Source: Thermosediminibacter oceani DSM 16646
GTDB lineage: Bacteria > Bacillota > Thermosediminibacteria > Thermosediminibacterales > Thermosediminibacteraceae
Reading direction: 5' to 3'
Assembly (NCBI RefSeq): GCF_000144645.1
Contig: NC_014377.1
Span: forward strand, 496,001 to 560,000
DNA length: 64,000 nt
Part shown: one piece after another, positions 26,720 to 49,287 of the stretch
Layout: every line of letters begins with the position of its first letter
Numbering within the stretch: the stretch's first letter is position 1
The notes under the pieces: generated by a model
What the model was told of the DNA's origin: nothing
The model's database searches: none
What the model saw: only the letters and a program-made list of their open reading frames with translations
Position numbers and translations under genes: made by a program

Positions 26720-26890
26720 GTTGTCGACCTTCGGTAGTGCAAAAACTCCAGGGATCGACGATTATACTCAAAATTAAAATTAAAATCGTTTTTTGAAGGA
26801 TTTCTGAAGTTTGGTGTCGAAATTGTTTAAAAGAAATTCGATGCATTATTTTCAACGTAAATTTTTTTATGACTTATAAGGGATTGAAAC
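26720..26890 (+). CRISPR. Orphan, decayed CRISPR leader with one degenerate repeat
   Basis: Bases 26720-26762 match the distinctive leader hairpin region of the two real arrays: TTGTCGACCT, GTAGTGCAAAAACTCC, GATCGACGA, with mutations that spoil the pairing. AT-rich sequence related to those leaders follows (GAAATTGTTTAAAAGAAATT). At 26861-26890 comes one repeat-like unit whose last 15 bases, ATAAGGGATTGAAAC, are identical to the array 2 repeat while the first half is altered. No second repeat follows. The repeat-to-hairpin distance is 141 nt instead of 177. It is a relic of a third array of the same family. Confidence 0.82.
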
Positions 26891-29976: not shown

Positions 29977-30268
29977 ATTTGTATTTCAACTCCTCTTTAA
30001 AGTGTGTTATCACTCATAATTTTATTTATGTATTACCTTTATTAAAAGATAGGTTTACAGCCGAAAATCCGTAAAATCAACCGAAGATATACTCTTTTCC
30101 AAGACTCTTTTTACCAATCTTACGTAAGGAGCTTACCTTAGTGTGGCCGAGGTCAAAACTTTCAACCTTTTTCATAGGTAAGGCAATCTACCCAGTTAAT
30201 TTAGATTATATCACGACTGCGGGAGAAAATTGTAATTTTTTGACGCGGTGCTGTCGCTATTGATTTTT
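29977..30268. other. Intergenic region before CRISPR leader 1
   Basis: No gene is recognised. Bases 30206-30225 contain TTATATCACGACTGCGGGAG, one of four related short motifs in the window (also near 26665, 36338 and 45182). The region must hold the divergent promoter of the MATE gene, but no convincing -35/-10 pair was picked out. Confidence 0.5.
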
Positions 30269-30445
30269 GTCGTCGACCTCCAATAGTGCAAAAACCCCCG
30301 GAGATCGACGACAAAAACAAAGTGCCATTAAATTCGCAATTTCTCTAGGATGAAGAGGATTTTTTTATTCTGTGTCGAATTAATTATAGAAAATTAATAA
30401 AATATTTTTCCAGCCAAAAGCTTAAATTATTTCTCATTTTAACGG
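30269..30445 (+). promoter_or_regulatory. CRISPR leader 1 with conserved hairpin
   Basis: Leader of array 1. It opens with an inverted repeat, GTCGTCGACCTCC / GGAGATCGACGAC (30269-30281 and 30300-30312), one mismatch in 13 bp. AT-rich sequence then runs to the first repeat. The same inverted repeat, its AATAGTGCAAAAACCCC-type loop and the 177-nt distance to the first repeat recur in leader 2. The array promoter and integration signals must lie here. Confidence 0.85.
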
Positions 30446-33211
30446 GTTTTTAGCTTACCTATGAGGGATTGAAACGGGGATCTTCCATGGCGTAAAATAA
30501 AAAATACTGAAGAGTTTTTAGCTTACCTATGAGGGATTGAAACCCCGTCCGTAGCAACCGGAATATACTTCAGTCGAATGTTTTTAGCTTACCTATGAGG
30601 GATTGAAACCAGGTATATCGAGCCCTGCAAAAGCGGCAGTGATCAGTTTTTAGCTTACCTATGAGGGATTGAAACAAACTGGAAAGCTCGTCTATTATCA
30701 CCATATCAAAAGTTTTTAGCTTACCTATGAGGGATTGAAACCGGCATCCGGATCAATCTCATCGAAGGTTACCGATACTGGGTTTTTAGCTTACCTATGA
30801 GGGATTGAAACATTGGATGCTGCGTATCCGCAGTCCACTCCGCTACGTTTTTAGCTTACCTATGAGGGATTGAAACATTCCGTGTTAGTAAGGTGTTTCT
30901 CGTATATCTCGTCGTTTTTAGCTTACCTATGAGGGATTGAAACCCAGCTTGGACGGCTCCTGGGTGCTGGACGGCACCGTTTTTAGCTTACCTATGAGGG
31001 ATTGAAACATTTAGTTACGGTGCGGACAAAGACACATTTTTTATGTTTTTAGCTTACCTATGAGGGATTGAAACATTAGTTCTCCGTCTACCGTTTCGAG
31101 GTCCCGAACTTCGTTTTTAGCTTACCTATGAGGGATTGAAACCCGAAAGAAAAAGATTGAGTGTAAATTAAATGAACTTGTTTTTAGCTTACCTATGAGG
31201 GATTGAAACAATATATTCCATATTAGACGCAAAAACCACCTTTCAGTTTTTAGCTTACCTATGAGGGATTGAAACTCTACCTGTTTAATCATTGATATAA
31301 CGGGAGCTACTCCGTTTTTAGCTTACCTATGAGGGATTGAAACTGCCACAATTGCCGGCTCAGTTTATCCTCTCTCTCGTTTTTAGCTTACCTATGAGGG
31401 ATTGAAACGGGTATCGTACACAGTTTTACTGTTCCGCCGTATATAGGTTTTTAGCTTACCTATGAGGGATTGAAACCATAGTCCGGGCCATAGCAGAGAC
31501 CACAAACTACGAGTTTTTAGCTTACCTATGAGGGATTGAAACTGCTTAAGGATAGGCTTAAAGAACTACGCAATAAAAAAGTTTTTAGCTTACCTATGAG
31601 GGATTGAAACTAGACAATTTATACGCGTCCTATGTTATAGCCTTCTGTGTTTTTAGCTTACCTATGAGGGATTGAAACATACGCCACATCACGCAAGAAT
31701 AAAAATCGAAAATAAGTTTTTAGCTTACCTATGAGGATTGAAACATATACTTCAGGCTATGGGGACAATGCCAACGACGTGGTTTTTAGCTTACCTATGA
31801 GGGATTGAAACTAGGCTTGTCCCTCCTACATAGATTCTTGTCTTTATTGTTTTTAGCTTACCTATGAGGGATTGAAACTCAGGCAAGAATATTCACCGCT
31901 AACCAAAGGATACTTCATGTTTTTAGCTTACCTATGAGGGATTGAAACGACCATCTATAACACTAAAACCTTGCTGGCTGCTATGTTTTTAGCTTACCTA
32001 TGAGGGATTGAAACGCGCCAAGAATCTCCGAAGTAGTGCGCCGTATTGGTCCTGTTTTTAGCTTACCTATGAGGGATTGAAACTTGGATGAGCCTATGAC
32101 TGTGGCTCATGCCAGGCTGAGTTTTTAGCTTACCTATGAGGGATTGAAACGCCCCTCCCATCAGATGGAACCGGTTCGTGCCGTTTGTTTTTAGCTTACC
32201 TATGAGGGATTGAAACATCTTCCGGTTCTTAATTTTGCCGTATCCACACCCGAGTTTTTAGCTTACCTATGAGGGATTGAAACTTCAACAGTAGTCTTTT
32301 TTCTGCCTCCACCAAACAAAGTTTTTAGCTTACCTATGAGGGATTGAAACCGCTCTCGACAACCGACACCAGCGTGACGCCCGTCCTGGTTTTTAGCTTA
32401 CCTATGAGGGATTGAAACGGCTATCCAATTGTCCCTCGCCAGGCAGGAAACCAAAAGTTTTTAGCTTACCTATGAGGGATTGAAACAAGCTACGTATAGA
32501 AATTACCTCGACTAAAATTATAGATGTTTTTAGCTTACCTATGAGGGATTGAAACTCTACTCCATCGCCAACAACATGGATCTGCCCGGTGAGTTTTTAG
32601 CTTACCTATGAGGGATTGAAACACCAATCGAACAATGACAAAAGGGAAATCCGGATCGGGTTTTTAGCTTACCTATGAGGGATTGAAACAGGAAAAAGCA
32701 ATTGAAATTTGCGACTTTATTAGGGAGGTTTTTAGCTTACCTATGAGGGATTGAAACTTATACAGTTTGTCATTACGACCGCACGCATAGGCGGCGTTTT
32801 TAGCTTACCTATGAGGGATTGAAACAAAAGGCCGACACTCTGGCACATAGCCAGAAATGTCGTTTTTAGCTTACCTATGAGGGATTGAAACTAGGAAAAG
32901 TCTTATTAGAAAAGGAGGCATAATATGGGTTTTTAGCTTACCTATGAGGGATTGAAACCCTAATAGATTATTTAGTATGTTTTTTATCTCTCCTGTTTTT
33001 AGCTTACCTATGAGGGATTGAAACGAGGTTTTCCGCCTTCGTTAAGGAGCTCCTGGAAGAGTTTTTAGCTTACCTATGAGGGATTGAAACTCGCCAAGGC
33101 CCATCTCCTCGAACGTGGGCTTCCACGTTTTTAGCTTACCTATGAGGGATTGAAACTGGCCCTGTCCCACACCTGTTCTTTTCGTGCGATCCATGTTTTT
33201 AGCTTACCTAT
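30446..33211 (+). CRISPR. CRISPR array 1: 41 full repeats plus one truncated repeat
   Basis: Direct 30-bp repeats beginning GTTTTTAGCTTACC and ending GAGGGATTGAAAC, with 41 unique spacers of about 35-40 bp. The ATTGAAAC end is typical of arrays processed by Cas6 in type I-B and type III systems. All repeats are identical except the one at 31716, which lacks one G. The final repeat (33195-33211) keeps only its first 17 bases and is joined to an IS110-family element. The spacer at 32892-32928 contains AAAAGGAGGCATAATATG, a ribosome site with a start codon, so it derives from a gene start. Orientation is set by the leader on the left. Confidence 0.98.
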
Positions 33212-34383
33212 CCTGAAAATAATGATCCCCAAAAAGGCAAAAAAAAACTAAGCCCATACATAATGTAAAAATATGGGATAAATCCTGAGCTTAATGTGCG
33301 TAATAACAAAACGCCTAAAAAGTTAAGACGCTACCGCTTCGACCGTAACCTTCAACCCTAAAGACTCAAGCTTCTTCAAAGACTGCCGGATGACCATATT
33401 GCGCCTTTTCTCTTCGTAAAAATTCGGACCTAATTCAATATAAGGTTGCCTTCGCTTGAGAATATGATAAACTATAGTTAGGATGCTGTTAGCTACCGCA
33501 ACCGCTGCTCGATTCGATCCTCTTCGAGCGGCGATGCGGTGGTATTGACTTGAAAGATAAGTATCTTTTGCTCTGGAGGCGGCCCGGGCAGCTTCTACAA
33601 GAGCGCTACGCAACTTCTTGTTTCCCTTTCGGGTCCTGGCGGACTTTCGTTTACCGGCGCTTTCATTCTGACCTGAACACAGCCCCGCCCATGAACACAA
33701 ATGAGCGGCGGAGGGGAACTGATCCATATTGGTTCCGATTTCAGCAATTATCTGTTCAGCAGTCCTTCTTCCCACTCCTGGAATCGTATCCAACAGTGCC
33801 AGGTCCTCTTCAAAAGGGAGCATTCGATTTTTAATTTCTTCATCCAATCTTTCTATTTCTTCATCGAGGTAATCAATATGTCTCAACTGTATTTCCAGCA
33901 TCTTTCTCTGGTGATAATTAATAAATCCTTTTAAAGCGCGCTTTAGATCTTCCTTTTTATTCTTTAACTTACCATGAGAAAGCTCTGCCAGGATTTCGGG
34001 GTCATCTACACCGCTGATGAGAGCTTCCAGTATAGCACGGCTGGACATGCCGTTAATATCGGAGACCACCGAAGACAGCTTGATATTGGCTCCTTCGAGC
34101 ACTTTCTGGATGCGGTTAAGTTCCCTTGAGCGCTCTTCAACAAGGCTGTGCCTGTAACGGACAAGTTCGCGAAGCTCCCTTTGCTCTCTGTCGGGGACGA
34201 AGCTGCCTTTTAAAAGGCCGTGGCGGAGTAGACTAGCAATCCATTCAGCATCCTTGACATCGGTTTTTCTGCCAGGCACATTTTTAATATGCTTTGCATT
34301 GACAAGGAGGATATTAATATTCTCAAGCTCCAGCAGGTTATAGATGGGCTTCCAGAAAGAACCGGTGCTTACTATCAAATAAA
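33212..34383 (-). mobile_element. Partial IS110-family element inserted in a CRISPR repeat (copy A)
   Basis: The boundary at 33211/33212 is defined by the broken repeat and starts CCTGAAAATAATGATCC; copy B at 49288 has the same junction. About 110 bp of non-coding end precede the transposase stop and include a stem CCCATA / TATGGG conserved in both copies. Homology to a transposase ends near 34383, in the middle of its N-terminal domain. The other element end, where IS110-group elements encode their bridge RNA, and the second half of the repeat are missing. It therefore looks immobile. Confidence 0.85.
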
Positions 34384-34393
34384 ATAGCCGCAA
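33323..34393 (-). pseudogene. IS110-family transposase, 5'-truncated (copy A)
   Basis: About 350 residues remain. The protein enters the DEDD/RuvC-like N-terminal domain at [15 protein letters not shown] and has [20 protein letters not shown], a coiled-coil middle and the C-terminal Transposase_20 domain (LLDTIPGVGRRTAEQIIAEI; NESAGKRKSARTRKGNKKLR with the presumed catalytic serine). The first 60-80 residues, which carry the first catalytic Asp, are gone; the apparent start MRLFYLIV comes from unrelated flanking DNA. So the recombinase should be inactive. Confidence 0.85.
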
Positions 34394-35658: not shown

Positions 35659-35988
35659 TCACGACAGAAAAGTATGAATCAGATCCAAGCACTCCGAAAC
35701 AATTTCATTGGATGCCCGTCCTACTATTTGAAGCTGCCGAGCGCGCCAATCTAAACTTTTGACCTGATCAGCTAAAATCACGCCTTGAACAGCCAAGCCT
35801 ACTGGTAATTCCACTTCAAACGGATAGCCTTTTTTTTGCCGGGTGATGGGGCAAAAAACCGCAAATCCTGTTAATTGATTAAATGGTTTCGGTGATAGAA
35901 CAATCCCCGGCCTTCTTCCTGCTTGTTCATGCCCTGATTGTGGATTGAAATTCACATAAACGAGATCCCCGCGATCCGGCGCTTGCAT
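35659..35988 (-). CDS. mazF: MazF-like mRNA interferase toxin
   Basis: A 109-residue sequence-specific endoribonuclease toxin of the MazF/PemK family. Motifs are RGDLVYVNFNPQSGHEQAGR with the usual RPGIVLS, then FAVFCPITRQKKGYPFEVEL, and GVILADQVKSLDWRAR near residue 70. The start overlaps the mazE stop by one base (TGATG), the usual coupling that keeps antitoxin in excess. Length is normal. It sits between the peptidase gene and a HEPN/MNT module, forming a small toxin-antitoxin cluster next to the cas operon. Confidence 0.93.
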   Translation of the reverse strand: MQAPDRGDLVYVNFNPQSGHEQAGRRPGIVLSPKPFNQLTGFAVFCPITRQKKGYPFEVELPVGLAVQGVILADQVKSLDWRARQLQIVGRASNEIVSECLDLIHTFLS

Positions 35989-36257
35989 CAGAACAATTCA
36001 TTCCCTTCTGTTCCAAAATCAATTTCAGCATGGCGATTTTCCGGCGTTATTTTGGCCAAAAGTTCTTCTAATGTCGGTTTTTTCTTTTTTGGGATCAACT
36101 TGATCGCCTGATTCTCAATAATCATTTCCATTTCTGAACCTTGGTGAATCCCAAGCCGTTCAGCAACCACGCTTGGAATACGGATCGCAAGGCTGTTTCC
36201 CCATTTTTGCACCTTTGCTGTCATAAGAGGCACCCCTTTTGGTTCGTTTAATTCCAT
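35988..36257 (-). CDS. mazE: MazE-like antitoxin (AbrB/SpoVT fold)
   Basis: An 89-residue antitoxin. The N-terminal swapped-hairpin DNA-binding domain reads TAKVQKWGNSLAIRIPSVVA, followed by RLGIHQGSEMEMIIENQAI. The acidic C-terminal tail (TPENRHAEIDFGTEGNE) would mask MazF. GAGGTGG lies before the ATG at 36257; an internal ATG 11 codons later also has AAGGGG. It is probably autoregulatory through the shared upstream region 36258-36460, which also serves the divergent HEPN/MNT operon. Confidence 0.92.
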   Translation of the reverse strand: MELNEPKGVPLMTAKVQKWGNSLAIRIPSVVAERLGIHQGSEMEMIIENQAIKLIPKKKKPTLEELLAKITPENRHAEIDFGTEGNELF

Positions 36258-36337
36258 TATACCACCTCACTTTTCTTTTGTATATACATAGTTTATACAT
36301 AAATTTAAAAAACGATTAATGCAGCCGCTTTTTTAAC

Positions 36338-36360
36338 ATATATCACGATTGCGTGATTTG
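36338..36360. promoter_or_regulatory. Inverted repeat between mazEF and HEPN/MNT
   Basis: ATCACG-ATTG-CGTGAT (36342-36357) is a perfect 6-bp inverted repeat in the 203-bp divergent intergenic region. It is a candidate operator for toxin-antitoxin autoregulation. A related TTATATCACGACTGCG occurs before CRISPR leader 1. Confidence 0.45.
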
Positions 36361-36469
36361 GAAAAACTTTAATATGTGCATATCTCGTTTATGTATAAAG
36401 AATAAAAGTTTACAGAATATCTGAAAATTGATATCATGGTAATCGAACACGATAAGAGGAGTGAGCTAC

Positions 36470-37389: not shown

Positions 37390-39756
37390 TTGGCGTTTTT
37401 ATTCAATGATTTTACCGCCGAAGAAAGAAATTTATTGCTCGCCGCCTTGCTCCACGATATAGGTAAATTCTGGCAGAGAACACAGGATGAACCGATGCGC
37501 CGTATTGTCAGCGAAAATTACAGGGCGTTCTATGAAGCAAGGAACCATAGCTCTCCGGGGCACCAGGATTGGAGTGCGTATTTTTGCGAAACCTTTGTGA
37601 AAATCCGGGAAGTAACGAACGCGGTAATAAACCATCACGGTCCTTCAGAAAGACTTCATTATTTTGTTAGTGCAGGAGATTGCCTTTCTGCCGGGGAAAG
37701 GTTAGATATCGCTGAGGAAAAAGGCGGGGAAATAAGGCAGCTGGTTTCGATCCTCTCCTGCATTGAACTTGATGGCCTACGGTCGAAAAAGGCTTATTAT
37801 AAAAAACTGGTCCCGCTTGGTGAATATTGCGTACCTGAAGAGGAGCCTTCGCCAAATCCGAAGCAAGGTTATAAAGAGTTGTGGGATGCTTTTATAAAAG
37901 CGTTTAATAGCATCCAAAATTTCGATGACCCCGTAGAGTTAACAAAACTTTACAGTATACTGGAAGAATATACATTCAATATACCTTCTGCCTACTACTA
38001 TTCCATGCCCGACATTTCCCTTTGGGCTCATCTTAAAACAGCAGCTGCTATAGCCTTTGCGCTTTACAGGGAATTGGAAGGAAAACCAAATCAGCATGTA
38101 ATAAGCAAGCTGGATAGTATAATAAGGCGTCCTTCTGCCGTGGAGGAAGACCTTTTTTGCCTGGTAAAAGGCGACATCTCGGGTATTCAGGACTTTGTCT
38201 ACGACACAAAAATGGATGGGGCTACAAAAGCTTTGAGGGGGAAATCCTTTTATTTGTCTTACCTCATGACGGTAATTCCCAAGTACATTTTGAAGAAAGA
38301 AAGGCTTCCTATAACTAACCTTCTTTACAGCGGTGGCGGACACTTTTACTTGATTATGCACGGAAGATTTTTGCAAAAATTAGATGAGTATCAAAAAGAA
38401 CTAGACGGCCTTTTTTTAGACGCCCACCACGGCGAGTTAGCTTTGCTGCTGAAGGGAGTTACGCTAAAGCCCGCGGATTTTAGAGTCAAAGACGGAAAGC
38501 TTCCGGAAAAATTTGAGGAACTGGGCAAGCTCCTTCAGGAGGAGAAAAACAGGAAGTTTTATAGCATATTAAAAGAAGACCAAAAAATGGTTTTCGGTCC
38601 CTTTAAAGAGAAGGGCGAGCCTTGCCCTCACTGCGGAAATCCGGTAAAAGAAGATGAATGCCCTTTCTGCAGAAGCTTTGAAAGGTTGGGCGAGAACTTA
38701 ATAAAGAAAAAATTCCTCGTAGAAGAATGGAAGGAAAAGAGCGAGAGGCAAAAGGGGAGTATTGAAAAAGTTGAAGACATATTCAAAAGATTGGGCGTTT
38801 CGGTAGAATTCACCGACGAGGCTTTAGAAAAAGACTACTCTTTTGCAGTAAAACGAGAAGAATGGGACTTTAAAAAATGCTGCGGCTACATGAAGATTCC
38901 GGTTGGGATGAAGCTAGACCAGAAAGGCAATATCATCACCTTCGATGAAATTTCGGATTCTGCTAAGGGAATAAAGGTATGGGGAGTGCTGCGGGGGGAT
39001 GTGGACAACCTAGGAAGAATTTTTAGGGAGGGCTTGGGGCAGAATCGCTCTTTTGCAAGGATTATGACTTTGTCCCAGGAAATGGCCCAGTTTTTCGGCC
39101 CGAGTTTGGAGCGTATGTTAAACCGTTTGGGCAGTTGCGATAAATCCCATAGTTACGAAAACTGTGCCGTCATTTATGCGGGCGGCGATGACTTTTTCCT
39201 GGTAGGCCCGTGGGATGCCATGCCCTATGTGGCGGAGGAGATAAAAAAAGAATTTTATAGATATACGGGGCACAACCCTGCGATAACAGTGTCCATGGCT
39301 TTTGATATTGCACCCGACAAAAAATTTCCTCTATACAGGGTCGCGCAAACCGCAGGCGAAAATCTGGAAAATGCGAAGCACTTCAAGGATCCAGTAAGAA
39401 AAAAAGAGAAAAATTGCTTTGCCTTTGCGGGTGTGCCTATCGGGTGGGAGGATTTTGATAAGTTTAAAGATGTTAAAGAAAAATTGTTCAAGGCATTGGA
39501 TGAATTAAAAGTGTCGCGGTCGCTGCTTGGGATTATTTACAGGGTTTGTAGGGAATATGAAGTTTCGGCTAACGAAGATGGAAAGATGTTCAGATCGTGG
39601 AGGCTCTTTTACTATGTCGCTCGCCTGAAAGAAAGAAACAAAAAGGCTGAAGACATATTGGATAAATTGATCTATTTATTGATTGAAAAGGGAAACAAGC
39701 TCTATAAATATGCCTTCCAATCGGCCCGGTGGGCGGAATTTGAGACAAGGAAATGA
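37390..39756 (+). CDS. csm1: Type III-A CRISPR Cas10/Csm1
   Basis: Large subunit of the Csm effector: target-activated DNase and cyclic oligoadenylate synthetase. It is 788 residues. The N-terminal HD nuclease motif is LLHDIGKFWQ (His22-Asp23). A zinc-ribbon CPHCGNPVKEDECPFC is at about 412-427. The Palm domain has the catalytic GGDDFFLV at 598-601, intact, so second-messenger production is expected; this fits the Csx1 and Csx3 genes downstream. The TTG start has AAAGGAGGAAGGGG upstream. It leads an operon of eight genes. A separate upstream Palm segment reads LVKGDISGIQDFVYD. Confidence 0.96.
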   Translation: MAFLFNDFTAEERNLLLAALLHDIGKFWQRTQDEPMRRIVSENYRAFYEARNHSSPGHQDWSAYFCETFVKIREVTNAVINHHGPSERLHYFVSAGDCLSAGERLDIAEEKGGEIRQLVSILSCIELDGLRSKKAYYKKLVPLGEYCVPEEEPSPNPKQGYKELWDAFIKAFNSIQNFDDPVELTKLYSILEEYTFNIPSAYYYSMPDISLWAHLKTAAAIAFALYRELEGKPNQHVISKLDSIIRRPSAVEEDLFCLVKGDISGIQDFVYDTKMDGATKALRGKSFYLSYLMTVIPKYILKKERLPITNLLYSGGGHFYLIMHGRFLQKLDEYQKELDGLFLDAHHGELALLLKGVTLKPADFRVKDGKLPEKFEELGKLLQEEKNRKFYSILKEDQKMVFGPFKEKGEPCPHCGNPVKEDECPFCRSFERLGENLIKKKFLVEEWKEKSERQKGSIEKVEDIFKRLGVSVEFTDEALEKDYSFAVKREEWDFKKCCGYMKIPVGMKLDQKGNIITFDEISDSAKGIKVWGVLRGDVDNLGRIFREGLGQNRSFARIMTLSQEMAQFFGPSLERMLNRLGSCDKSHSYENCAVIYAGGDDFFLVGPWDAMPYVAEEIKKEFYRYTGHNPAITVSMAFDIAPDKKFPLYRVAQTAGENLENAKHFKDPVRKKEKNCFAFAGVPIGWEDFDKFKDVKEKLFKALDELKVSRSLLGIIYRVCREYEVSANEDGKMFRSWRLFYYVARLKERNKKAEDILDKLIYLLIEKGNKLYKYAFQSARWAEFETRK

Positions 39757-39769
39757 GGAGGTTTTTTGA

Positions 39770-40192
39770 ATGGCTTGGGAGAGCAATAGAAAAGGGAAAT
39801 CCGATTCTTTCAATGACGTGAAAGAAATAGAAGAAAGGTTGCCTTCAGCCCTAGATAAAAATAAAGATCCAAATGGGGATGACTTCTTTTACTGCGCCGA
39901 GAAGACGGGAAAGCTGCTGGCTACAAAGCGCGTGAGCGTATCTCAAATAAGAAAAATTTTTAATAAAGCAAGAAGGATAAAATACGAAGAAAATGGGATT
40001 TTCGAGCTTAGGATGCTGAAAGCCGTAATTGCTTATACAGCGGGGAGATTCCCCGAAAACATGAAGGAGTTCAAGGGGATTTTTACAAAGGCCATCGAAA
40101 TTGCTGAAAAAAGCGAAGAAAATCTCAAGAGATTTAAGCAATTTTTCGAGGCGGTAGTCGCCTACCACAGATCTTACGGTGGAAGAGAATAA
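39770..40192 (+). CDS. csm2: Csm2, small subunit of type III-A complex
   Basis: A 140-residue helical protein that lines the inner filament of the Csm complex and helps hold the target RNA. The N-terminal 40 residues are charged and probably flexible. The helical core includes VSVSQIRKIFNKARRIKYEE and ELRMLKAVIAYTAGRFP, which match Csm2 family sequences. GAGGAGG precedes the ATG. The gene lies 13 bp after csm1 and directly abuts csm3. Length is typical (120-150). Confidence 0.9.
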   Translation: MAWESNRKGKSDSFNDVKEIEERLPSALDKNKDPNGDDFFYCAEKTGKLLATKRVSVSQIRKIFNKARRIKYEENGIFELRMLKAVIAYTAGRFPENMKEFKGIFTKAIEIAEKSEENLKRFKQFFEAVVAYHRSYGGRE

Positions 40193-40207
40193 ATGGAGGT
40201 GGATTTT

Positions 40208-41026
40208 GTGAAGGATTTAAAACTCGCCGGCAAATATATAATAACATCCGAAATTGTCGCACTAACGGGACTTCATATAGGGACTTCATCAAACACCCTT
40301 GAAATAGGCGGTGTGGACAATTCGGTAGTGAAAGATGCTTTAGGTAGGCCTTATATCCCGGGGAGTTCCTTAAAAGGCAAAATGAGGGCGTTACTGGAGT
40401 ATGCGGAAGGTCTGATTACCATGGTATATGTTGTACATAATGAAAGGAATGAATCTTCCAATACGCGTATTCACATGTGCAAAAAAGAAGATTGCGCCGT
40501 CTGCAATATTTTCGGCAGGAATCACGGCAAACACAAAGTTGTTGATGGGAATGATCCCCGGGGTTATAGGCCAGTAGATTTTACCGATGCCGTTACTCCC
40601 ACCAGGCTTATAGTTCGGGATGCGACGTTAATAAAAGAGAGCATCACAGAACAAATGAAGGAAAATATGGATTTTGAATGGACTGAGGTAAAATTTGAAA
40701 ACAACCTAGATAGGGTAACTTCTGCCGCTAATCCTCGCCAGACCGAAAGGGTTCCGGCAGGGGCCCGGTTTAAATCGGAGATGGTTTTAACCGTATTTCA
40801 AGGTGAAGGAACGAAATACATTGAAAAATTACTCGAAGCCATGCTGCTTTTGGAAGACGATTACCTAGGGGGTCAGGGCACGCGCGGGTACGGCCGCATA
40901 GCTTTTGAAAAAGTAAGTATAGCGTTTAGGAGTGTAGGATATTACGAAGGACGAGAAGAAGAACAGGTAATAGTCGAGAATTGTCCCAGCCTAAGGGAAG
41001 CCCTTGGGAAAATAAAGCGGGGATGA
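40208..41026 (+). CDS. csm3: Csm3, backbone RAMP of type III-A complex, target RNase
   Basis: A 272-residue Cas7-type RAMP that forms the crRNA-binding filament and cuts target RNA every 6 nt. GLHIGTSSNTLEIGGVDNSV contains the catalytic Asp in GGVDN; it is followed by YIPGSSLKGKMRALLEY and the C-terminal G-rich loop LGGQGTRGYGRIAFEKV. Cysteines near CKKEDCAVCNIFG form the usual zinc-binding insertion. The GTG at 40208 is preferred: GGAGGTGG is 5 nt upstream and the family starts here, whereas the ATG at 40193 would place the ribosome site inside the gene. Confidence 0.95.
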   Translation: MKDLKLAGKYIITSEIVALTGLHIGTSSNTLEIGGVDNSVVKDALGRPYIPGSSLKGKMRALLEYAEGLITMVYVVHNERNESSNTRIHMCKKEDCAVCNIFGRNHGKHKVVDGNDPRGYRPVDFTDAVTPTRLIVRDATLIKESITEQMKENMDFEWTEVKFENNLDRVTSAANPRQTERVPAGARFKSEMVLTVFQGEGTKYIEKLLEAMLLLEDDYLGGQGTRGYGRIAFEKVSIAFRSVGYYEGREEEQVIVENCPSLREALGKIKRG

Positions 41027-41032
41027 AAGCTT

Positions 41033-41992
41033 ATGGATTCTGGCGTGAAAAGATACAGGGTAAAACTTAAGTTCAAAGGACCCGTTCATTTCGGCTACAA
41101 AGAAAAGACCTATAATTTAACCGAAACTTTTGCCCATTCCGATACGCTTTTTAGCGGCATTGTCAACTGCTATTCCCTGCTTTACGGCAAAGCTGCCGCG
41201 GATAATCTTGTCGAAATGTTCTTCGATAATCCGCCTTTTAAAATATCTTCGGCATTTTTGTACGCGAATGACGAATTTTTTGTGCCAAGGCCCCTTAATA
41301 TGGACCTGACGCCCATTACCGGCGATTATAAAAAGGCAAAAAAGGTAAAATACGTTCCGTTAGATTTTATCCTCGCCAGGGATGGCGGCGGAAAAGCAAA
41401 TAAGGACTACAGAGTGGAACATGGCATCTTGGCGAGGAAGGATATGGATACTCCCTATGTAATCTCCGAAAGGCCAAGAGTGAAAATAGACCGCGGTGAT
41501 TTCAGCACCGAAATTTACTATGTGAGTGGCTGCTATTTTCGCGAAGGGGCAGGACTGTGGTTTTTCCTCGATATATACGATGATTCTGAAGAAGAAAAGG
41601 TCAAAGCAGCCATAAGGCTTTTGGGCGACGAGGGTATTGGTGGTGAAAGGACCTACGGTTTCGGAAGCTTTGAAGCCGGTATTGAAGAATATAATGAGAA
41701 GAAAGGAAACGGCTCTGGAGATTGGCTTTTGCTTTCCTTATATTACCCACGCATGGATGAAAAGGTAGCTGATATAATTAAAGCTTTTTCGCTTTTGGAG
41801 AGAGCCGGGTACTCATATTCTCCTTTTAATCAACAAGCGAGAAAGAAAAAAGTCAGAATGCTGGCGGAGGGTAGTGTTTTTAAGAAGGATGTTCAGGGGA
41901 TGGTGGTTGACGTTTCGCCAGGTGAGGATGTCGGTCATAAAATTTTAAAATATGGCCTTGCCTATACTGTGCCGATTTTTAACAGAAAGTGA
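41033..41992 (+). CDS. csm4: Csm4, 5'-tag-binding RAMP
   Basis: A 319-residue Cas5-like RAMP that caps the crRNA 5' tag and contacts Cas10. The N-terminal RRM starts YRVKLKFKGPVHFGYKEKTY, then AHSDTLFSGIVNCYSLLYG, which is typical of Csm4. The glycine-rich loop GGERTYGFGSFEAG lies near residue 205. The gene starts 6 bp after csm3 and ends 12 bp before csm5. Length is normal. Confidence 0.94.
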   Translation: MDSGVKRYRVKLKFKGPVHFGYKEKTYNLTETFAHSDTLFSGIVNCYSLLYGKAAADNLVEMFFDNPPFKISSAFLYANDEFFVPRPLNMDLTPITGDYKKAKKVKYVPLDFILARDGGGKANKDYRVEHGILARKDMDTPYVISERPRVKIDRGDFSTEIYYVSGCYFREGAGLWFFLDIYDDSEEEKVKAAIRLLGDEGIGGERTYGFGSFEAGIEEYNEKKGNGSGDWLLLSLYYPRMDEKVADIIKAFSLLERAGYSYSPFNQQARKKKVRMLAEGSVFKKDVQGMVVDVSPGEDVGHKILKYGLAYTVPIFNRK

Positions 41993-42004
41993 GGTGAAAA
42001 AATT

Positions 42005-43126
42005 TTGGAGAAACCTTTTCAGTATGAAGTAGAGATAATATCGCCTGTGAATATTGGGGATGGGAATCGTTATAGAGAATTTGAATACATTATTGAAGGT
42101 GACTCAATAGGTTTTATCGATGTGATAAAGCTTCTAAAATCCAATAAAGATAACACAAGTTTTATTGATTATTTTTATCGATCAATTGATTCTTTTCGCT
42201 TTAGCTGGCAGGATGCGTTAAAATACGCTCCTAAAATCGATATTAGCGAATTTATAAGCTATCAAGTTAAGCCTTGCGGTGCGTCACGCGTAAAAGGAGA
42301 TATAGTATCCTTTATTAAAACCACCGGATATCCTTATATACCGGGTTCAAGCTTGAAAGGCTCTTTCAGAACGGGACTTATGAGAGGCGTATGGCCTTCT
42401 ATAGAAGAGGAGTATAAAGCAAAATTAGATGATACCTTGCGGGAGAAAGATAAAAAGCTAAAAGAGATTGACGATTACCCAGAAGAAGAAACCTTTGGCA
42501 AACCTCATTATTCGCCCTTCAAGTTTGTGAGGTTTTCTGATTCTTCACTATTGCCGCTGGATGCCTTGGGAATTTATGAAATGAAGATTTTGAATATATG
42601 CCACGGGAAAGCAAAATGGTTTAAGAAAAATGAAAATGTAGAAGAAAGTGAAAATGCTACGGCTATTTATATTGAAGCGCTAAAACCCGGCATCAGAGCT
42701 GAAGGTTTTTTTGAAATAAAACAAAGAACCAAAAATGAAGAGATTTACCGTATAATCAAAAACGTGTGGATTTTGAAAAATGCTTTTAATGCAATAAGAA
42801 ATGACACGAAAAGGTACATAGAAGGCGAAAAGTATTTTTATAAAGAATACGGTTTGGACCAGGTGGCGAATTTTTATCAGAGGCTGGAAGAACTAAATGG
42901 GAAATTGGGGGAAAATGAGATATTACTCCAAATAGGTTTTGGAACCGGGTATCTTTCAAAGACTATAGGCTGTTTTCTTTCCGCAGAAGATTTAAAGAAG
43001 CTTTCAAAGCAAGGGGTGCGCATTTCAGATGCTAATTTATTCCCTAAAACGAGGCGTATAATTTTCGCAAACGGAAACCCCGATACTGTCCCGGGGTGGG
43101 TAAAAATTACTTTTAGAGAGGTTTAA
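42005..43126 (+). CDS. csm5: Csm5, 3'-end RAMP of type III-A complex
   Basis: A 373-residue RAMP placed at the 3' end of the crRNA filament and needed for crRNA maturation. YEVEIISPVNIGDGNRYREF and YPYIPGSSLKGSFRTGLMRG are the Csm5 signature; a C-terminal G-loop is LLQIGFGTGYLSKT. It has a TTG start, with GAGGTG 9-10 nt upstream overlapping the csm4 stop region. It is followed 5 bp later by cas6. Confidence 0.94.
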   Translation: MEKPFQYEVEIISPVNIGDGNRYREFEYIIEGDSIGFIDVIKLLKSNKDNTSFIDYFYRSIDSFRFSWQDALKYAPKIDISEFISYQVKPCGASRVKGDIVSFIKTTGYPYIPGSSLKGSFRTGLMRGVWPSIEEEYKAKLDDTLREKDKKLKEIDDYPEEETFGKPHYSPFKFVRFSDSSLLPLDALGIYEMKILNICHGKAKWFKKNENVEESENATAIYIEALKPGIRAEGFFEIKQRTKNEEIYRIIKNVWILKNAFNAIRNDTKRYIEGEKYFYKEYGLDQVANFYQRLEELNGKLGENEILLQIGFGTGYLSKTIGCFLSAEDLKKLSKQGVRISDANLFPKTRRIIFANGNPDTVPGWVKITFREV

Positions 43127-43131
43127 TAAAT

Positions 43132-43812
43132 GTGTTCAGGCTGAGGTTAGAAATATATTTTAAGAAAGACGCTTTCTTTTTTGATAGAGGATATAAAATT
43201 AATCTTTCTTCTTATTTTAGGGAAGTTATAAAAAACCAGTTTTTTGTTTTCTCCGATATAATCCCATCGAAAAAGAAACCGGCGAAGGATGGATTTTGGG
43301 CGTTAGATCGTGCGGCTTTGATTTTAAACACCGCTTTTCAGGAGCTTTTGCCCGATATTGCTTTAAAGATTATGAACACCCCAGTGGATTTCAGATACGG
43401 CAGACTTACATTTTCTAAAGCAATTTTCCAAAGGGTACCATTGGAGAGGACTGGGTATTTGTTGTCTCCGGTGGCGGTGGCACTGCCCGCAGGAGAAAAT
43501 TTATTGTGGGAAGAAAGGCCGGAGCGTTTCAGCGAAGCCTTAAGGCAGATGCTGGTAGATAAATACATTCGACTTTACGGCAGAAGGCCTTCTGACGACC
43601 GCTTTCTTTTTCGCTTCAGGGGAAGACCTGTAAAAGAGGAACTAGATTCTGGAGTCATTGCCTACCGGGGCAAATTTGAGATATTCAGTTCGGAAGAACT
43701 TGTAATGCTTTCCTATCTTTGTGGATTAGGGAGTTTTAATGCCATGGGATACGGAATGGCCTCCCCGGATTTATATTTGTGGAAAAAGCCGGAAACAATG
43801 GAGGGAATCTAG
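43132..43812 (+). CDS. cas6: Cas6 pre-crRNA endoribonuclease
   Basis: A 226-residue Cas6-family RNase that cuts within the CRISPR repeat to release crRNAs. The ferredoxin-like fold ends with the diagnostic glycine-rich loop CGLGSFNAMGYGMASP. N-terminal MFRLRLEIYFKKDAFF begins the first RRM. Repeats ending in ATTGAAAC would leave the 8-nt 5' tag used by type III complexes. The start is GTG. It is coupled between csm5 and csx1, so one operon should supply the crRNAs for both arrays. Confidence 0.92.
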   Translation: MFRLRLEIYFKKDAFFFDRGYKINLSSYFREVIKNQFFVFSDIIPSKKKPAKDGFWALDRAALILNTAFQELLPDIALKIMNTPVDFRYGRLTFSKAIFQRVPLERTGYLLSPVAVALPAGENLLWEERPERFSEALRQMLVDKYIRLYGRRPSDDRFLFRFRGRPVKEELDSGVIAYRGKFEIFSSEELVMLSYLCGLGSFNAMGYGMASPDLYLWKKPETMEGI

Positions 43813-45177
43813 ATGAATAGCTTAATATACCAAATCGGGAGATTGGATAGGAATATAATAAAAAAACAGAAATTCACAATAGAAGGGAAAACTAGATCTA
43901 AACAGCTTTCATCCTTTGCCCTAAAAGAGCATTTAAAAGAAAACGGCGAGCAAGCAAAAGTAATCCTAGTATATCCCGTAAGCCTGCCGTTTAACAGGAC
44001 TCTGGAAAACGCAAATTTTGGCGATTTTTCCAGGAGTTTAAAAGCTGTTTTAAGAAATCCGAAAGAAGAGTACCTGTCTAATCCGAAAAACTTTTTTTCG
44101 AATATGCCGTATTCTAGTGAAGTGGATGATTTTATCGTAATTCATTCAATCGGTGAATATGCCGGAATTAATTTTCAAGGTAAATTCAACGATATTGTAT
44201 TTGAAATCGCTCTTGATATGATAGAGAGATATAATGAAGAAATAGAAAGGATCTATGTGGATATTTCCAGTGGACTTAATATTTATGTTTCTGCGCTCCT
44301 GGAGGCGGTGAGGTTTTTCAGTATCTGGGCTACTTTGAAAAACTGGCTTCCCGAAGCCAAAAGGCCAGAAATATGGATCACTTTTTCTGATCCGATTTTG
44401 GACAATGAAGCGGCGGAATACCAACTTCATAGAGAAAAATTGGAATTCAAAGCCTTTTTCGCATCACCTATAAATAAAGAGGACATAAACAACGTCGCAA
44501 AGAAAATTTATGAAGATGACAGGTCAAAAAAGCGCAAACTTTCCTCATTGCTCGAGAACTTCCTTGTTATCTTTTCAGCGATTAAGAATAATATACCTCT
44601 TGCGGTTTATCTATTTGGATATGAGGATGGGGAAGTAATCGATGAAACTTCGAGGACATTAATAGAAGATATGAAAAAGAAGTTATATGACTCTTATGCC
44701 GCATCTCCCAATTTGGACAAGAACACCTATTCCAAAGGCCTTTTATCGCTTGCTTTTTATTCAGGTATAGCAGAAGTTTTTTGGCATTATCAGATTAAAA
44801 ATCACGATGAAGACGACGGAATAGACCTTGATGAATTAAAAAGGATATTTGATGACCTATATTCGTTATTTAGCTTAAAACCAAATAATGTTTTTCTTGG
44901 CAATGAGATATCAAATACAAAAAGGATAATGGGAAAAATTAATATAGAAGATTCAACATGGCATTTGCTTATAAAGTTCCATAACAAGGAATATGAGGGA
45001 AGGACGCCGGATAAAAGGAATTTCTTTGCTCACTCCGGTTTAGAGGGCCTGGTCACGGAAATGAAAAAAGAAAAAGACAAGTTTTTCGTTCGTTATACGA
45101 GAGAATATACGGATAAATCAGGCAACAAAAAGAGTGTTAAAAACCTAATAAGAGAGTGGCTGAAGGAAGAAGCTTAA
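43813..45177 (+). CDS. csx1: Csx1-family CARF-HEPN ribonuclease
   Basis: A 454-residue accessory RNase activated by cyclic oligoadenylate from Cas10. The N-terminal CARF domain has KVILVYPVSLPFNRTLEN and the ligand-loop segment ERIYVDISSGLNIYVSALLE. The C-terminal HEPN domain carries the R-x4-H catalytic motif in RNFFAHSGLEG near residue 400. Both are intact, so collateral RNA cleavage is expected upon target recognition. The ATG immediately follows the cas6 stop. It could alternatively be called Csm6; the extended CARF with DISSGLN favours Csx1. Confidence 0.92.
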   Translation: MNSLIYQIGRLDRNIIKKQKFTIEGKTRSKQLSSFALKEHLKENGEQAKVILVYPVSLPFNRTLENANFGDFSRSLKAVLRNPKEEYLSNPKNFFSNMPYSSEVDDFIVIHSIGEYAGINFQGKFNDIVFEIALDMIERYNEEIERIYVDISSGLNIYVSALLEAVRFFSIWATLKNWLPEAKRPEIWITFSDPILDNEAAEYQLHREKLEFKAFFASPINKEDINNVAKKIYEDDRSKKRKLSSLLENFLVIFSAIKNNIPLAVYLFGYEDGEVIDETSRTLIEDMKKKLYDSYAASPNLDKNTYSKGLLSLAFYSGIAEVFWHYQIKNHDEDDGIDLDELKRIFDDLYSLFSLKPNNVFLGNEISNTKRIMGKINIEDSTWHLLIKFHNKEYEGRTPDKRNFFAHSGLEGLVTEMKKEKDKFFVRYTREYTDKSGNKKSVKNLIREWLKEEA

Positions 45178-45216
45178 AGCGTTATATTACATAAGCGATT
45201 GCGAGGTTTGTAAGGA

Positions 45217-45501
45217 ATGGTCAAATTTGATACGGCTGAATACGGAAAATATACCATCCTACACTTTGAATTGGAAGGGCCTATAAACCCGGAGATCTTA
45301 AAAGACATATGCCCTCCCAAAGTAAACAGCACAAAAGGCCTGATAATAAGCGGACGTGGTCCTATATGGCTTTACTGCTATTTGGTCCATTACTACCACT
45401 TTACAGTTTTTATCGCTACCTTTGACCCAAGGTTGGGCGGAGCGGTTATAGTAGAATCTCATATTCCCGAGTTCAAACCAGGAAATGTTATTATGCTCTA
45501 A
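45217..45501 (+). CDS. csx3: Csx3 (Crn3) ring nuclease-like protein
   Basis: A 94-residue stand-alone Csx3. The family has a ferredoxin-like fold and Mn-dependent activity that degrades cyclic tetra-adenylate and so turns off the type III response. The signature block is present: KGLIISGRGPIWLYCYLVHY followed by YHFTVFIATFDPRLGGAVIV and ESH. Start context is AAGGA-ATG, modest. It lies 39 bp after csx1 and only 45 bp before leader 2, ending the cas operon. Pairing with Csx1 gives an activator/off-switch couple. Confidence 0.92.
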   Translation: MVKFDTAEYGKYTILHFELEGPINPEILKDICPPKVNSTKGLIISGRGPIWLYCYLVHYYHFTVFIATFDPRLGGAVIVESHIPEFKPGNVIML

Positions 45502-45545
45502 GAGGTTGATATGGAAAATCTTAAATAAGAATCGAATCAAGTTTT

Positions 45546-45722
45546 GTCGTCGACCTCCAATAGCGCAAAAACCCCTGGAGGTCGACGACAAAAGCAAAAT
45601 GTGCCTTAAATTGGAATTTCTCTTGGGGAAAGAGGATTTTTTAAGTAGGTGGCGAATTATTTATAGAAAATTGATAAAATCTTTTTTCGGCTTTAATCTT
45701 CAATTTTTTCTCTTTTTCACGG
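45546..45722 (+). promoter_or_regulatory. CRISPR leader 2 with perfect 13-bp hairpin
   Basis: GTCGTCGACCTCC (45546-45558) and GGAGGTCGACGAC (45577-45589) pair perfectly across an 18-nt loop containing AATAGCGCAAAAACCCC. The first repeat begins exactly 177 nt after the hairpin start, as in leader 1. Other shared blocks are GAGGATTTTTT and TATAGAAAATT(A/G)ATAAAAT. Csx3 ends 45 bp upstream. Confidence 0.85.
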
Positions 45723-47432
45723 GTTTTTAGCCTACCTATAAGGGATTGAAACAGATTTACTTGATATATATTCCCCTGCCTATCGCGGGTTTTTAGCCTA
45801 CCTATAAGGGATTGAAACTCGGCGAAATGACGAGAAAGCCCGCAAAAAAGTAGTCCTTCGGTTTTTAGCCTACCTATAAGGGATTGAAACGAGACATTTC
45901 TCGTATTTGCGTAGGTCTGGTTTTTCGGGTTTTTAGCCTACCTATAAGGGATTGAAACCTGATTGATTATTTAGGAGCCGAAGACACGGAATATAGTTTT
46001 TAGCCTACCTATAAGGGATTGAAACGGGACTCAACAGAATAACTTTATCAAACCTGATTATAGTTTTTAGCCTACCTATAAGGGATTGAAACATCCACAC
46101 GTTCGTAAAAATAATTCTGTATGCCATAGGTTTTTAGCCTACCTATAAGGGATTGAAACAATTCCGGCTGATCAGGTCTTTCTACATCTCCATCTCGTTT
46201 TTAGCCTACCTATAAGGGATTGAAACAAATTTATTTCCCCACTTTATCCGAAGAAACAAAAAGTTTTTAGCCTACCTATAAGGGATTGAAACTGCTGCCG
46301 CACATAGGACAATATCTTGCATTACTAGGTTTTTAGCCTACCTATAAGGGATTGAAACCACCGTAATCGATATAAATTCTCCACTTTATACCCAGGTTTT
46401 TAGCCTACCTATAAGGGATTGAAACTAGGTCTTATGGATAAGTTCGTTTTGTGTTGTGATAGTTTTTAGCCTACCTATAAGGGATTGAAACGTACTGTAG
46501 TCGACTGGGGCTGCCCTGTGGCCCTAGTGTTTTTAGCCTACCTATAAGGGATTGAAACTTTAGTTTTGACTTATAGGAATATGGAGAGATTAGAGTTTTT
46601 AGCCTACCTATAAGGGATTGAAACATTGATTTATTATTGGTATTTAAAGAAAATAGATGGTGTTTTTAGCCTACCTATAAGGGATTGAAACAAAAGCTCC
46701 CTTTCGGTAAGAAGATCCATGGAACCATGTTTTTAGCCTACCTATAAGGGATTGAAACTGGCATCCCGTTTACAAAAGTGAATAATCTTTTCGAGTTTTT
46801 AGCCTACCTATAAGGGATTGAAACACGAGGATCCCCTTCCAGGAATGGACATAAGCGAGGGTTTTTAGCCTACCTATAAGGGATTGAAACTTCAAACCCC
46901 ACCGCCGTGCTGCTTCTGCTGCTGTGATCGTTTTTAGCCTACCTATAAGGGATTGAAACGCGGTTACAATTACAAGCGTAAGACGCATTGAGCAAGGTTT
47001 TTAGCCTACCTATAAGGGATTGAAACTCCAGGGATCGGGTGCAGATATGGTGAAGCTAGCTTCTGTTTTTAGCCTACCTATAAGGGATTGAAACCTGCAA
47101 ACATCCTAGCTAAAAATGCAGGCGTAGACGGTTTTTAGCCTACCTATAAGGGATTGAAACTTGCCATTATTTTATATTTATCATTGCCATCAAAAACAGT
47201 TTTTAGCCTACCTATAAGGGATTGAAACGTGTTTGTGCTTTTATATGGTTACTAAAACATATAGGTATAGTTTTTAGCCTACCTATAAGGGATTGAAACC
47301 TAGATTGGTTAATGGGGGTTTCTGATGTTCGTAGCGTTTTTAGCCTACCTATAAGGGATTGAAACTCAGGAATAAGCTCAAGCGTCTTATTCCTGGTCCG
47401 GGGTTTTTAGCCTACCTATAAGGGATTGAAAC
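45723..47432 (+). CRISPR. CRISPR array 2, leader-proximal part: 26 repeats
   Basis: 30-bp repeats beginning GTTTTTAGCCTACC and ending TAAGGGATTGAAAC, with 25 complete spacers of about 36-42 bp and a 26th cut by an IS3-family element. The repeat differs from that of array 1 at three positions (GCCT for GCTT, TAAG for TGAG), so the same Cas6 probably processes both. No repeat in this part varies. Confidence 0.98.
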
Positions 47433-47523
47433 AACAATATGCTCGGAGTGTCAAGAAGAATATTTTGCCCCCTAATAGAATTGGAGAAAAAGTTTGATAA
47501 TGTTACAATGTTAATTAGGGGGT

Positions 47524-47841
47524 ATGAAATTGAAAAAGAAACGTTATGACCGAGAATTTAAGGAGCAAGTTGTAAGAGAATGCCAGGAAGTTGGTAATAT
47601 TGCGTTAGTGGCTAGAAGACATGGACTCTCCAAAAATACGGTATATAACTGGCTTCAAGCAACAAGAAAGAATGGTTCTGTTATCCCTCTGCCACGCGAT
47701 GTAAACCAAAGGCTTTTAGAGGCAGAAAATAGGCTAGAAAGTTTAGCTAGGGAGAATGACCAGCTAAAAAGACTTGTGGCGGAAAAAGAACTAGAACTGG
47801 CTATTTTAAGAGAATTACGGGATCGAGTAAACCCTCAGTAG
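47524..47841 (+). CDS. IS3-family transposase OrfA
   Basis: A 105-residue DNA-binding protein. The helix-turn-helix reads FKEQVVRECQEVGNIALVAR with HGLSKNTVYNWLQ. A leucine-zipper-like coiled coil (LLEAENRLESLARENDQLKR) follows. OrfB lies in the -1 frame and is open across the end of orfA, so a fused OrfAB transposase by -1 frameshifting is likely, perhaps at the GGAAAAAG run near 47779. Confidence 0.92.
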   Translation: MKLKKKRYDREFKEQVVRECQEVGNIALVARRHGLSKNTVYNWLQATRKNGSVIPLPRDVNQRLLEAENRLESLARENDQLKRLVAEKELELAILRELRDRVNPQ

Positions 47842-47870
47842 CCGACAAAGTCGCAATTGCCAAAAGGTGG

Positions 47871-48794
47871 GTGGCGAAAGGATATAGTCTCTACCTCGTT
47901 CTGGGCTTTGTCGGCCTTGCGCCATCCACCTTTTACGCATATGAAAGTAAAAAAGAACCGACTGTAACCGCTGATAACCAAGCTAAAGCTAAAGCGGGCA
48001 GGCCAAAAACGCAGTTTTCTTATACTCTGGATGGCAAGAAGGTTGCCGATGAGCAGATTAAAGAATGGCTATGTGAATTGGTTTGTCAAGATGGTTTTCC
48101 TTATGGCTATAAGAAGCTTACGGCAGCTTTAGTAGAGGACTATGGCCTTGTCATCAACCATAAAAAAGTTTACCGGCTATGTAAGGAACTGGATATTCTT
48201 AAGCCGCAAAGAATTTGTAAATCAAAGCATCCAAGGCGCCTAGCTCAACGCATTGAAGTAACCGGGCCTAACCAACTCTGGGAAATGGATGTAAAATACG
48301 GATACATACACGGAGAAGAAAGATTCTTTTTTCAGCTTTCGCTTATTGATGTATTTGATCGTTGTGTGATTGACTACCACTTAGGTTTAACCTGTACAGC
48401 CAAAGACGCCCGTAGGGTGCTGTGTAATGCCTTAAAGAAGCGTGGTATTAAACCAGGAATGCAAATGCCAAGGTTAAGAACGGATAATGGTCCTCAATTC
48501 ATTGCTAACCTTTTTGCTGCAGCCTGTCGGAAACTTGGCATCGTTCATGAACGAATACCGGTAAAAACCCCAAACTTAAATGCTCATATTGAAGCCTTCC
48601 ATTCAATTCTTGAAGATGAATGCTATAGCCGACATCAATTTGCAAGCTACGCGGAAGCCTATGAACAGATTGCTTGGTATATGGATTATTACAATAATCG
48701 CCGCCGTCATGGGAGTCTTAACAATATGGCTCCCCAAAAATATTATCAAGCTATTATAAGTAATTCTATAAAACCTAAATCTTTGGTAGCATAA
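47871..48794 (+). CDS. IS3-family transposase OrfB (DDE integrase)
   Basis: A 307-residue rve-type DDE recombinase. Catalytic residues are intact: Asp in QLWEMDVKYGYI, Asp in LRTDNGPQFIANL and, 35 residues on, Glu in NLNAHIEAFHSIL. A preceding HTH_21 region reads GYKKLTAALVEDYGLVINHK. The same frame is open upstream of this ATG into the end of orfA (SSKPSVADKVAIAKRW), consistent with production mainly as an OrfAB fusion. The C-terminal YYNNRRRHGSLNNMAP is typical. The element is probably still active. Confidence 0.92.
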   Translation: MAKGYSLYLVLGFVGLAPSTFYAYESKKEPTVTADNQAKAKAGRPKTQFSYTLDGKKVADEQIKEWLCELVCQDGFPYGYKKLTAALVEDYGLVINHKKVYRLCKELDILKPQRICKSKHPRRLAQRIEVTGPNQLWEMDVKYGYIHGEERFFFQLSLIDVFDRCVIDYHLGLTCTAKDARRVLCNALKKRGIKPGMQMPRLRTDNGPQFIANLFAAACRKLGIVHERIPVKTPNLNAHIEAFHSILEDECYSRHQFASYAEAYEQIAWYMDYYNNRRRHGSLNNMAPQKYYQAIISNSIKPKSLVA

Positions 48795-48818
48795 TCTCCA
48801 AAATTAGGGGGTCAAGGC

Positions 48819-49287
48819 GGATTGAAACACTGAAAAAGGGGCGGTGTTTTTGCCTATTCTATATAAAGTTTTTAGCCTACCTATAAGGGATTGAAACAGA
48901 TCGTAGCGGCGACAATAGCAAGAAACTGGTCGAGTTTTTAGCCTACCTATAAGGGATTGAAACATGGATAAGATTTATAGACTTCAGAATGGGGAAATTA
49001 CGTTTTTAGCCTACCTATAAGGGATTGAAACAGTCAATGGCTTTGGCTCTAGCAGAGCCTTTCTCTTCACGTTTTTAGCCTACCTATAAGGGATTGAAAC
49101 CGATATGGCGGTATCTCAAGTGGCAGAGGTTGCAATAGTTTTTAGCCCACCTATAAGGGATTGAAACATTGAATCCATATTCTTTTTTCGAGGGACAAAA
49201 TCGAAGTTTTTAGCCTACCTATAAGGGATTGAAACTATTCTCTTGCAGGGATATCGATTTGTGCCACATAGTTTTTAGCCTACCTAT
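48819..49287 (+). CRISPR. CRISPR array 2, distal part: 6 full repeats between two partial repeats
   Basis: It begins with the last 10 bases of a repeat (GGATTGAAAC) at the IS3 right end, then six full repeats from 48868, the one at 49138 with one change (GCCCACC). It ends with a repeat cut after 17 bases (49271-49287) and joined to an IS110-family end. Without its own leader, it can be transcribed only through the IS or from promoters within it. These are the oldest spacers of the array. Confidence 0.95.

Follow-up and report, generated by a model that had tools for sequence, protein, structure and literature searches.

The window analysed here, a stretch of 64,000 nucleotides from Thermosediminibacter oceani DSM 16646, contains two CRISPR arrays whose leaders both carry a long inverted repeat at their upstream edge, and the question raised by this locus is what an element so far from the first repeat does for the array that follows it. 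The initial annotation had reported the inverted repeat in both leaders, with near-identical loops, and a first repeat that starts 177 nt after the first base of the hairpin. These observations were borne out. The arms are 18 nt long in both hairpins, with complementarity of 94% for array 1 (GTCGTCGACCTCC...GGAGATCGACGAC) and 100% for array 2; the loops read AATAGTGCAAAAACCCCC and AATAGCGCAAAAACCCCT, respectively, and the first repeats begin at 30446 and 45723. Both count among the strongest inverted repeats present in the 64-kb window. DNA folding gave z scores of -7.4 for the array 1 hairpin and -8.0 for that of array 2, with no shuffle folding equally well, and RNA folding gave z scores of about -8.3. 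The rest of the leader had been described as less conserved; this is a mild effect for the window pair (82% identity over 211 nt) and a strong one across relatives. Coordinates of the features are collected in Table 1.

Table 1. Leader hairpins, CRISPR arrays and associated features of the window
Feature	Coordinates	Strand	Remarks
Leader hairpin, array 1	30269..30312	+	44 nt; flanking T5/A5 extends pairing to 30264-30317
Rest of leader 1	30313..30445	+	Holds AGAGGATTTTTT and AT-rich promoter-like stretches; ends at first repeat
CRISPR array 1 (GTTTTTAGCTTACCTATGAGGGATTGAAAC)	30446..33211	+	Last repeat truncated at 33195-33211, where IS110-associated stretch starts
Type III-A csm genes, cas6, csx1, csx3	37390..45501	+	Between the arrays; without cas1
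Leader hairpin, array 2	45546..45589	+	44 nt, stem perfectly paired; extended arms 45542-45593
Rest of leader 2	45590..45722	+	
CRISPR array 2 (GTTTTTAGCCTACCTATAAGGGATTGAAAC)	45723..49287	+	Insertion around 47440-48860; last repeat truncated at 49271-49287
Decayed hairpin copy	26720..26763	+	Arms mutated; folding no better than shuffles
Lone degenerate repeat	26861..26890	+	141 nt 3' of decayed hairpin; relic of array

The genome, a single contig of 2,280,035 bp, was searched for further copies of the hairpin. Two additional intact copies were found outside the window, at 73288 and 1643775, each located 177 nt before an array. Thus, all four intact copies in the genome precede arrays, and no copy was found away from arrays at up to 2 mismatches. 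The decayed copy (DNA folding z of -0.4) and the degenerate repeat that follows it form a relic CRISPR locus spanning 26720-26890. The arrays adjoining the hairpins carry 30-nt repeats of the ATTGAAAC type, in keeping with membership among the Cas1b leaders discussed below. No family in Rfam 15 matched the hairpin at the gathering score, the sole matches being CRISPR-DR2 repeats; viral contigs gave no match to the element, and a literature search by arm sequences returned nothing relevant.

Several other features of the window were noted. The last repeat of each array breaks off at one and the same base (..TACCTAT), and the sequence that comes next is nearly identical in the two cases (33195-33320 and 49271-49396; 33323-34393 and 49398-50000). 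The ORF after array 1 encodes an IS110-family (RNA-guided) transposase. It seems that in each array an IS110 element inserted into a CRISPR repeat, or that the array end was copied along with it. Array 2 is interrupted at 47440-48860 by a two-gene insertion of about 1.4 kb, IS3-like by eye, beyond which the array resumes. Two gene pairs, one MazE/MazF-like and the other HEPN / nucleotidyltransferase, occupy the region from array 1 to the csm genes (35659-37178).

The element was searched for at several taxonomic breadths. Within the taxonomic class, the element was present in 22 of 26 genomes (up to 2 mismatches) and the repeat in 22 of 26, with both found in 20. In an even sample of 119 genomes from the phylum, 24 carried the element at up to 3 mismatches, although one or more of the single matches is probably fortuitous; a reversed control pattern gave zero matches in the same 119 genomes. 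A scan of 84,980 species was done with a half-motif pattern consisting of the left arm and loop motif only, leaving the right arm unconstrained. At least 120 loci matched this pattern, and the matches listed include Geobacillus, Anoxybacillus, Aeribacillus, Paenibacillus, Clostridium, Thermoanaerobacter, Caloramator, Caldicoprobacter, Caldatribacterium, a Chloroflexota bin and others. Among the matches listed, the free right arm was located at exactly +36 in 117 of 123, as expected of a protein site, and three of the 123 had neither right arm nor array, which is roughly the chance expectation. When 145 elements were examined for a neighbouring array, 122 had a repeat within 330 bp and 12 were cut by a contig end. 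One hairpin copy without an array of its own (L166:538-581; G022:C1:2966837) lies about 50 bp from the end of an array with an unrelated repeat, CTTCTTATCCTGTATAGTTGGAATTTGAAC. The L281 leader may hold a diverged version: its arms differ, but the ends pair (TATGTCA...TGACATA) and it has the loop motif TAGTGCCAAAA.

The consensus is T-GTCGTCGACCYCC-RRTARTGCAAAAACCCC-GGRGRTCGACGAC-A, a nearly invariant element of rigid 44-nt geometry, and in 85 independent leaders conservation begins at position 0 and ends at 45. Information content is high over the arms and the loop motif; the conservation of the left arm and loop is partly imposed by the search pattern, of which the right arm and positions 29-35 are free. 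Outside the element the leaders have almost no information in common; the exceptions are a GG just ahead of the repeat and weakly conserved positions around -19, -8 and -4. Pair 9-36 is a C.A mismatch in 97 of 143 elements, a pattern of two half-sites that vary at one position, not of a stem optimised for pairing. Changes in both arms were seen in some relatives (GTTGTCGACC...GTCGACAAC in L251; TTCGTCGACC...GGTCGACGAA in L268 and L274), and in others the inner arm changes are uncompensated. Pairing of the flanks beyond the core averaged 2.09 bp, against 1.23 bp expected when right flanks were reshuffled among leaders, a procedure that leaves some relatedness between them; the corresponding values for leaders without a U-tract were 1.76 and 1.32 bp. 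This excess points to genuine intrastrand hairpin formation by some members of the family at least.

The distance from hairpin to first repeat is fixed within clades. It is 140-144 nt (mode about 141) in Paenibacillus, Clostridium and Caloramator, 163-170 nt (mode about 167) in the Geobacillus group, Caldatribacterium and others, and 175-179 nt (mode about 177) in relatives of Thermosediminibacter and Tepidanaerobacter; a further cluster lies at 187-190 nt (mode about 188), and few distances fall between clusters. The overall range is 55-205 nt, the hairpin being flipped and nearer to the repeat in some loci of the neighbouring Cas1 subclade described below. The initial annotation had described the 177-nt spacing for both arrays, and had named as refutation the absence of the inverted repeat or of the fixed spacing in other leaders of the repeat family. 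The inverted repeat is indeed present there, and close relatives keep the spacing (175-177 nt); across the family, however, it is constant only within clades. A universal 177-nt rule was therefore rejected, the clades differing at about 141, 164-168, 177 and 188 nt, and 177 nt is best regarded as a clade value. The modes of about 166, 177 and 188 nt differ by 11, but the best-fitting period is 11.5-12 rather than 10.5 and the clades are not independent, so that helical phasing is not claimed.

The sole Cas1 of the genome is a Cas1b (C1:72017; TIGR03641, 467 bits against a cut-off of 304) located beside the leader copy at C1:73288. It belongs to a type I-B operon with cas6, cas7, cas5, cas3, cas4 and cas2; Cas4 and Cas2 are encoded directly upstream of this leader copy, whose hairpin starts 5 nt past the cas2 stop codon. 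Thus, one Cas1b accompanies four intact leaders that share the element and stand with different effectors, III-A in the window and I-B at 72 kb. A survey was done in which loci were picked by Cas1 and not by hairpin, and were scored only where an array was adjacent. The element was found within 260 bp of the first repeat in 19 of 19 loci of the Cas1 clade of this genome, the clade being cut at a phmmer score of at least 390 to the genome's Cas1, a value chosen after the first table had been seen, and 17 further clade loci with no array in the fetched stretch being left out of the count. It was present in three of nine loci of a neighbouring Cas1 subclade, in 0 of 27 other Cas1 loci with an adjacent array (mostly with type I-C-like repeats), and in 0 of 110 coding-DNA controls. 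Two of the three positives in the neighbouring subclade (L262 and L272) have the loop reversed. Such flipped hairpins, which also occur at L047, a Bacteroidetes bin from the pattern scan with the hairpin between cas2 and the array, are separated by 55-77 bp from arrays whose repeats are of another type (..AACCATTGTGGGATGGAAAC and similar). A quick tree of 111 Cas1 sequences agrees with the clade as cut: every row with a hairpin fell outside the I-C-like side, all 37 I-C-like rows were without it, and label changes were far below those of shuffles; a 14-row subclade without forward hairpins formed a single branch (SH-aLRT 98). The element thus tracks one Cas1 clade, that of type I-B Cas1b, and not the effector. 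It should be noted that the element persists in some genomes (e.g. G011, G020 and G056) in which no Cas1 was detected. Genome G013, in which no Cas1 was found, has a 51-repeat array without the hairpin and with a different upstream region, intron-like by eye. Since Cas1, the repeat and the leader are passed on together as one module, their co-segregation is no proof of contact.

Transcription signals around the element bear on two further explanations. Promoter-like pairs scoring at least 9 of 12 were sought in 50 independent leaders, with expectations from shuffles. Pairs resembling the consensus were found between hairpin and array in 23 leaders (12.4 expected), and upstream of the hairpin in 12 (4.0 expected), including the Paenibacillus group. 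In Caloramator, TTGACA-17-TATAAT lies between element and array, with a start about 7 nt before the repeat. Thus, a strong promoter often places the element upstream of the transcription start, whereas the good promoter just upstream of it in Paenibacillus would have it transcribed. An operator, at which an inverted-repeat-binding regulator (e.g. a CARF-type or other dimer) would control the pre-crRNA promoter from the upstream edge of the leader, agrees with the promoters downstream of the element in many leaders and with the two inverted half-sites at rigid spacing, typical of a dimer site. We consider it unlikely, because the distance to the best promoter varies widely among clades, with the Paenibacillus promoter lying on the other side, because the distribution follows Cas1 rather than effector, and because the intact copies of this genome are confined to arrays. 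An RNA element appears rather doubtful; the hairpin would then form a structured region in the 5' part of the leader transcript, or would separate the array from cas2 as an insulator or intrinsic terminator. The strong folds (z about -8), the flank pairing that exceeds expectation even in leaders without a U-tract, the position just past cas2 in the cas1-associated locus of this genome and the Paenibacillus promoter all speak for it, as does the better folding of the minus-strand RNA in 54 of 85 leaders, a strand comparison with few independent changes behind it (wobble pairs, MFE). A U-tract follows the stem in 22 of 85 independent leaders, but not in the other 63, and the window copies have no U-tract, their T5...A5 flanks being of the wrong polarity for a terminator on both strands. 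Moreover, a terminator needs no invariant stem and loop sequence, the frequent C.A pair and the rigid loop length speak against an RNA role, and the element is kept at arrays far from cas genes. The terminator-like RNA proposed initially is therefore disfavoured as a general function, and an intrinsic (Rho-independent) terminator, which calls for a U-tract behind a GC-rich stem, a combination not seen in the window, was rejected in that role.

A purely structural DNA site was also considered, in which the arms would extrude as a cruciform under supercoiling and Cas1 or a host DNA-bending protein would recognise the junction or hairpin rather than the duplex. The Cas1 of S. islandicus prefers stem-loop DNA (PMC9456107), and the excess flank pairing includes mixed-sequence cases such as AACGAT/ATCGTT. 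Recognition of structure alone would not require arms and loop of nearly invariant sequence, however. In addition, loops of 16-18 nt make cruciform extrusion of short arms costly, and we regard this explanation as improbable. That the element is a passive remnant without function, carried along with duplicated leaders, is hardly credible: leaders within one genome are indeed copies of each other, but it is chiefly the element that has been retained across many families, the remaining leader sequence having become too divergent to align.

The reading we prefer, at about an even chance, is that the adaptation module of Cas1b (type I-B) uses the element as a docking or recognition site at the distal end of the leader. 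Three roles had originally been offered for the hairpin, and they fared differently: an anchoring site for the integration machinery has the best support, since the element goes with the Cas1 clade and serves arrays beside different effectors; a site for a DNA-bending protein is possible, given the rigid spacing and the central A-tract; the terminator is the role that lost ground. A site for the adaptation machinery is further favoured by the rigid, duplex-like geometry and by the position at the outer edge of the leader, often upstream of the likely promoter; the decay of the element along with a dead array (26720), the hairpin-less array of G013 and the precedent of the Csa3a site in Sulfolobus islandicus (PMC9456107) were counted in its favour. 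Weighing against it are the excess of flank pairing, the promoter upstream of the element in the Paenibacillus group and the genomes that have the element but no detected Cas1. We infer that the element acts as DNA. The Cas1-Cas2(-Cas4) complex, or an adaptation-specific partner, would recognise a pair of inverted half-sites (TGTCGTCGA-Y-C...) set rigidly apart on either side of the conserved A-tract loop (TRRTGCAAAAA). The 100-150 bp between element and repeat would be folded back, and the complex would reach the leader-repeat junction and insert the new spacer there. Possible, in a tentative vein, is a hairpin-forming, sequence-specific docking site, read extruded or in either orientation, that would guide the Cas1b integrase to arrays at a distance of 55-205 bp, dispensing with the IHF-type architecture of types I-E and I-F, and would define which arrays that integrase writes, whatever their effector. 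In general, the element probably helps to decide where cells write new immune memories.

In the literature searched, little is known of the way in which the type I-B systems of Gram-positive bacteria locate their arrays, and a 44-bp element that tracks a Cas1 clade is a directly testable target. The element can also serve as a marker of array orientation and of which orphan or type III arrays an I-B integrase serves in trans, and it lets leaders be recognised where repeats differ. Buyukyoruk et al. 2025 (doi 10.1089/crispr.2024.0093) is reportedly a survey and catalogue of CRISPR leader motifs; this work may already contain the 44-nt motif, and novelty is provisional.

Among systems already described, the closest likeness is to the type I-A leaders of Sulfolobus islandicus, in which a leader-distal motif (-143 to -94) is bound by Csa3a and is needed for efficient adaptation (PMC9456107). 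That site, like the present element, lies far upstream in the leader and is separate from the leader-repeat junction; the effect on acquisition is that of the Csa3a site, which is archaeal and bound by a CARF regulator, whereas the present element is linked to a bacterial Cas1b. Type I-F leaders contain IHF sites as well as inverted-repeat motifs (PMC12259127 and references therein), and their motifs are recognised by Cas1-Cas2 on DNA folded by the bending protein. The likeness there is in the leader motif, but the present element is a different 44-bp sequence and belongs to Cas1b systems. A conserved hairpin involving the CRISPR leader is likewise known from type VI (PMC13187072); in that case the first repeat is the pairing partner of the leader RNA, whereas the hairpin described here pairs within itself, at a distance of 55-205 nt from the repeat.
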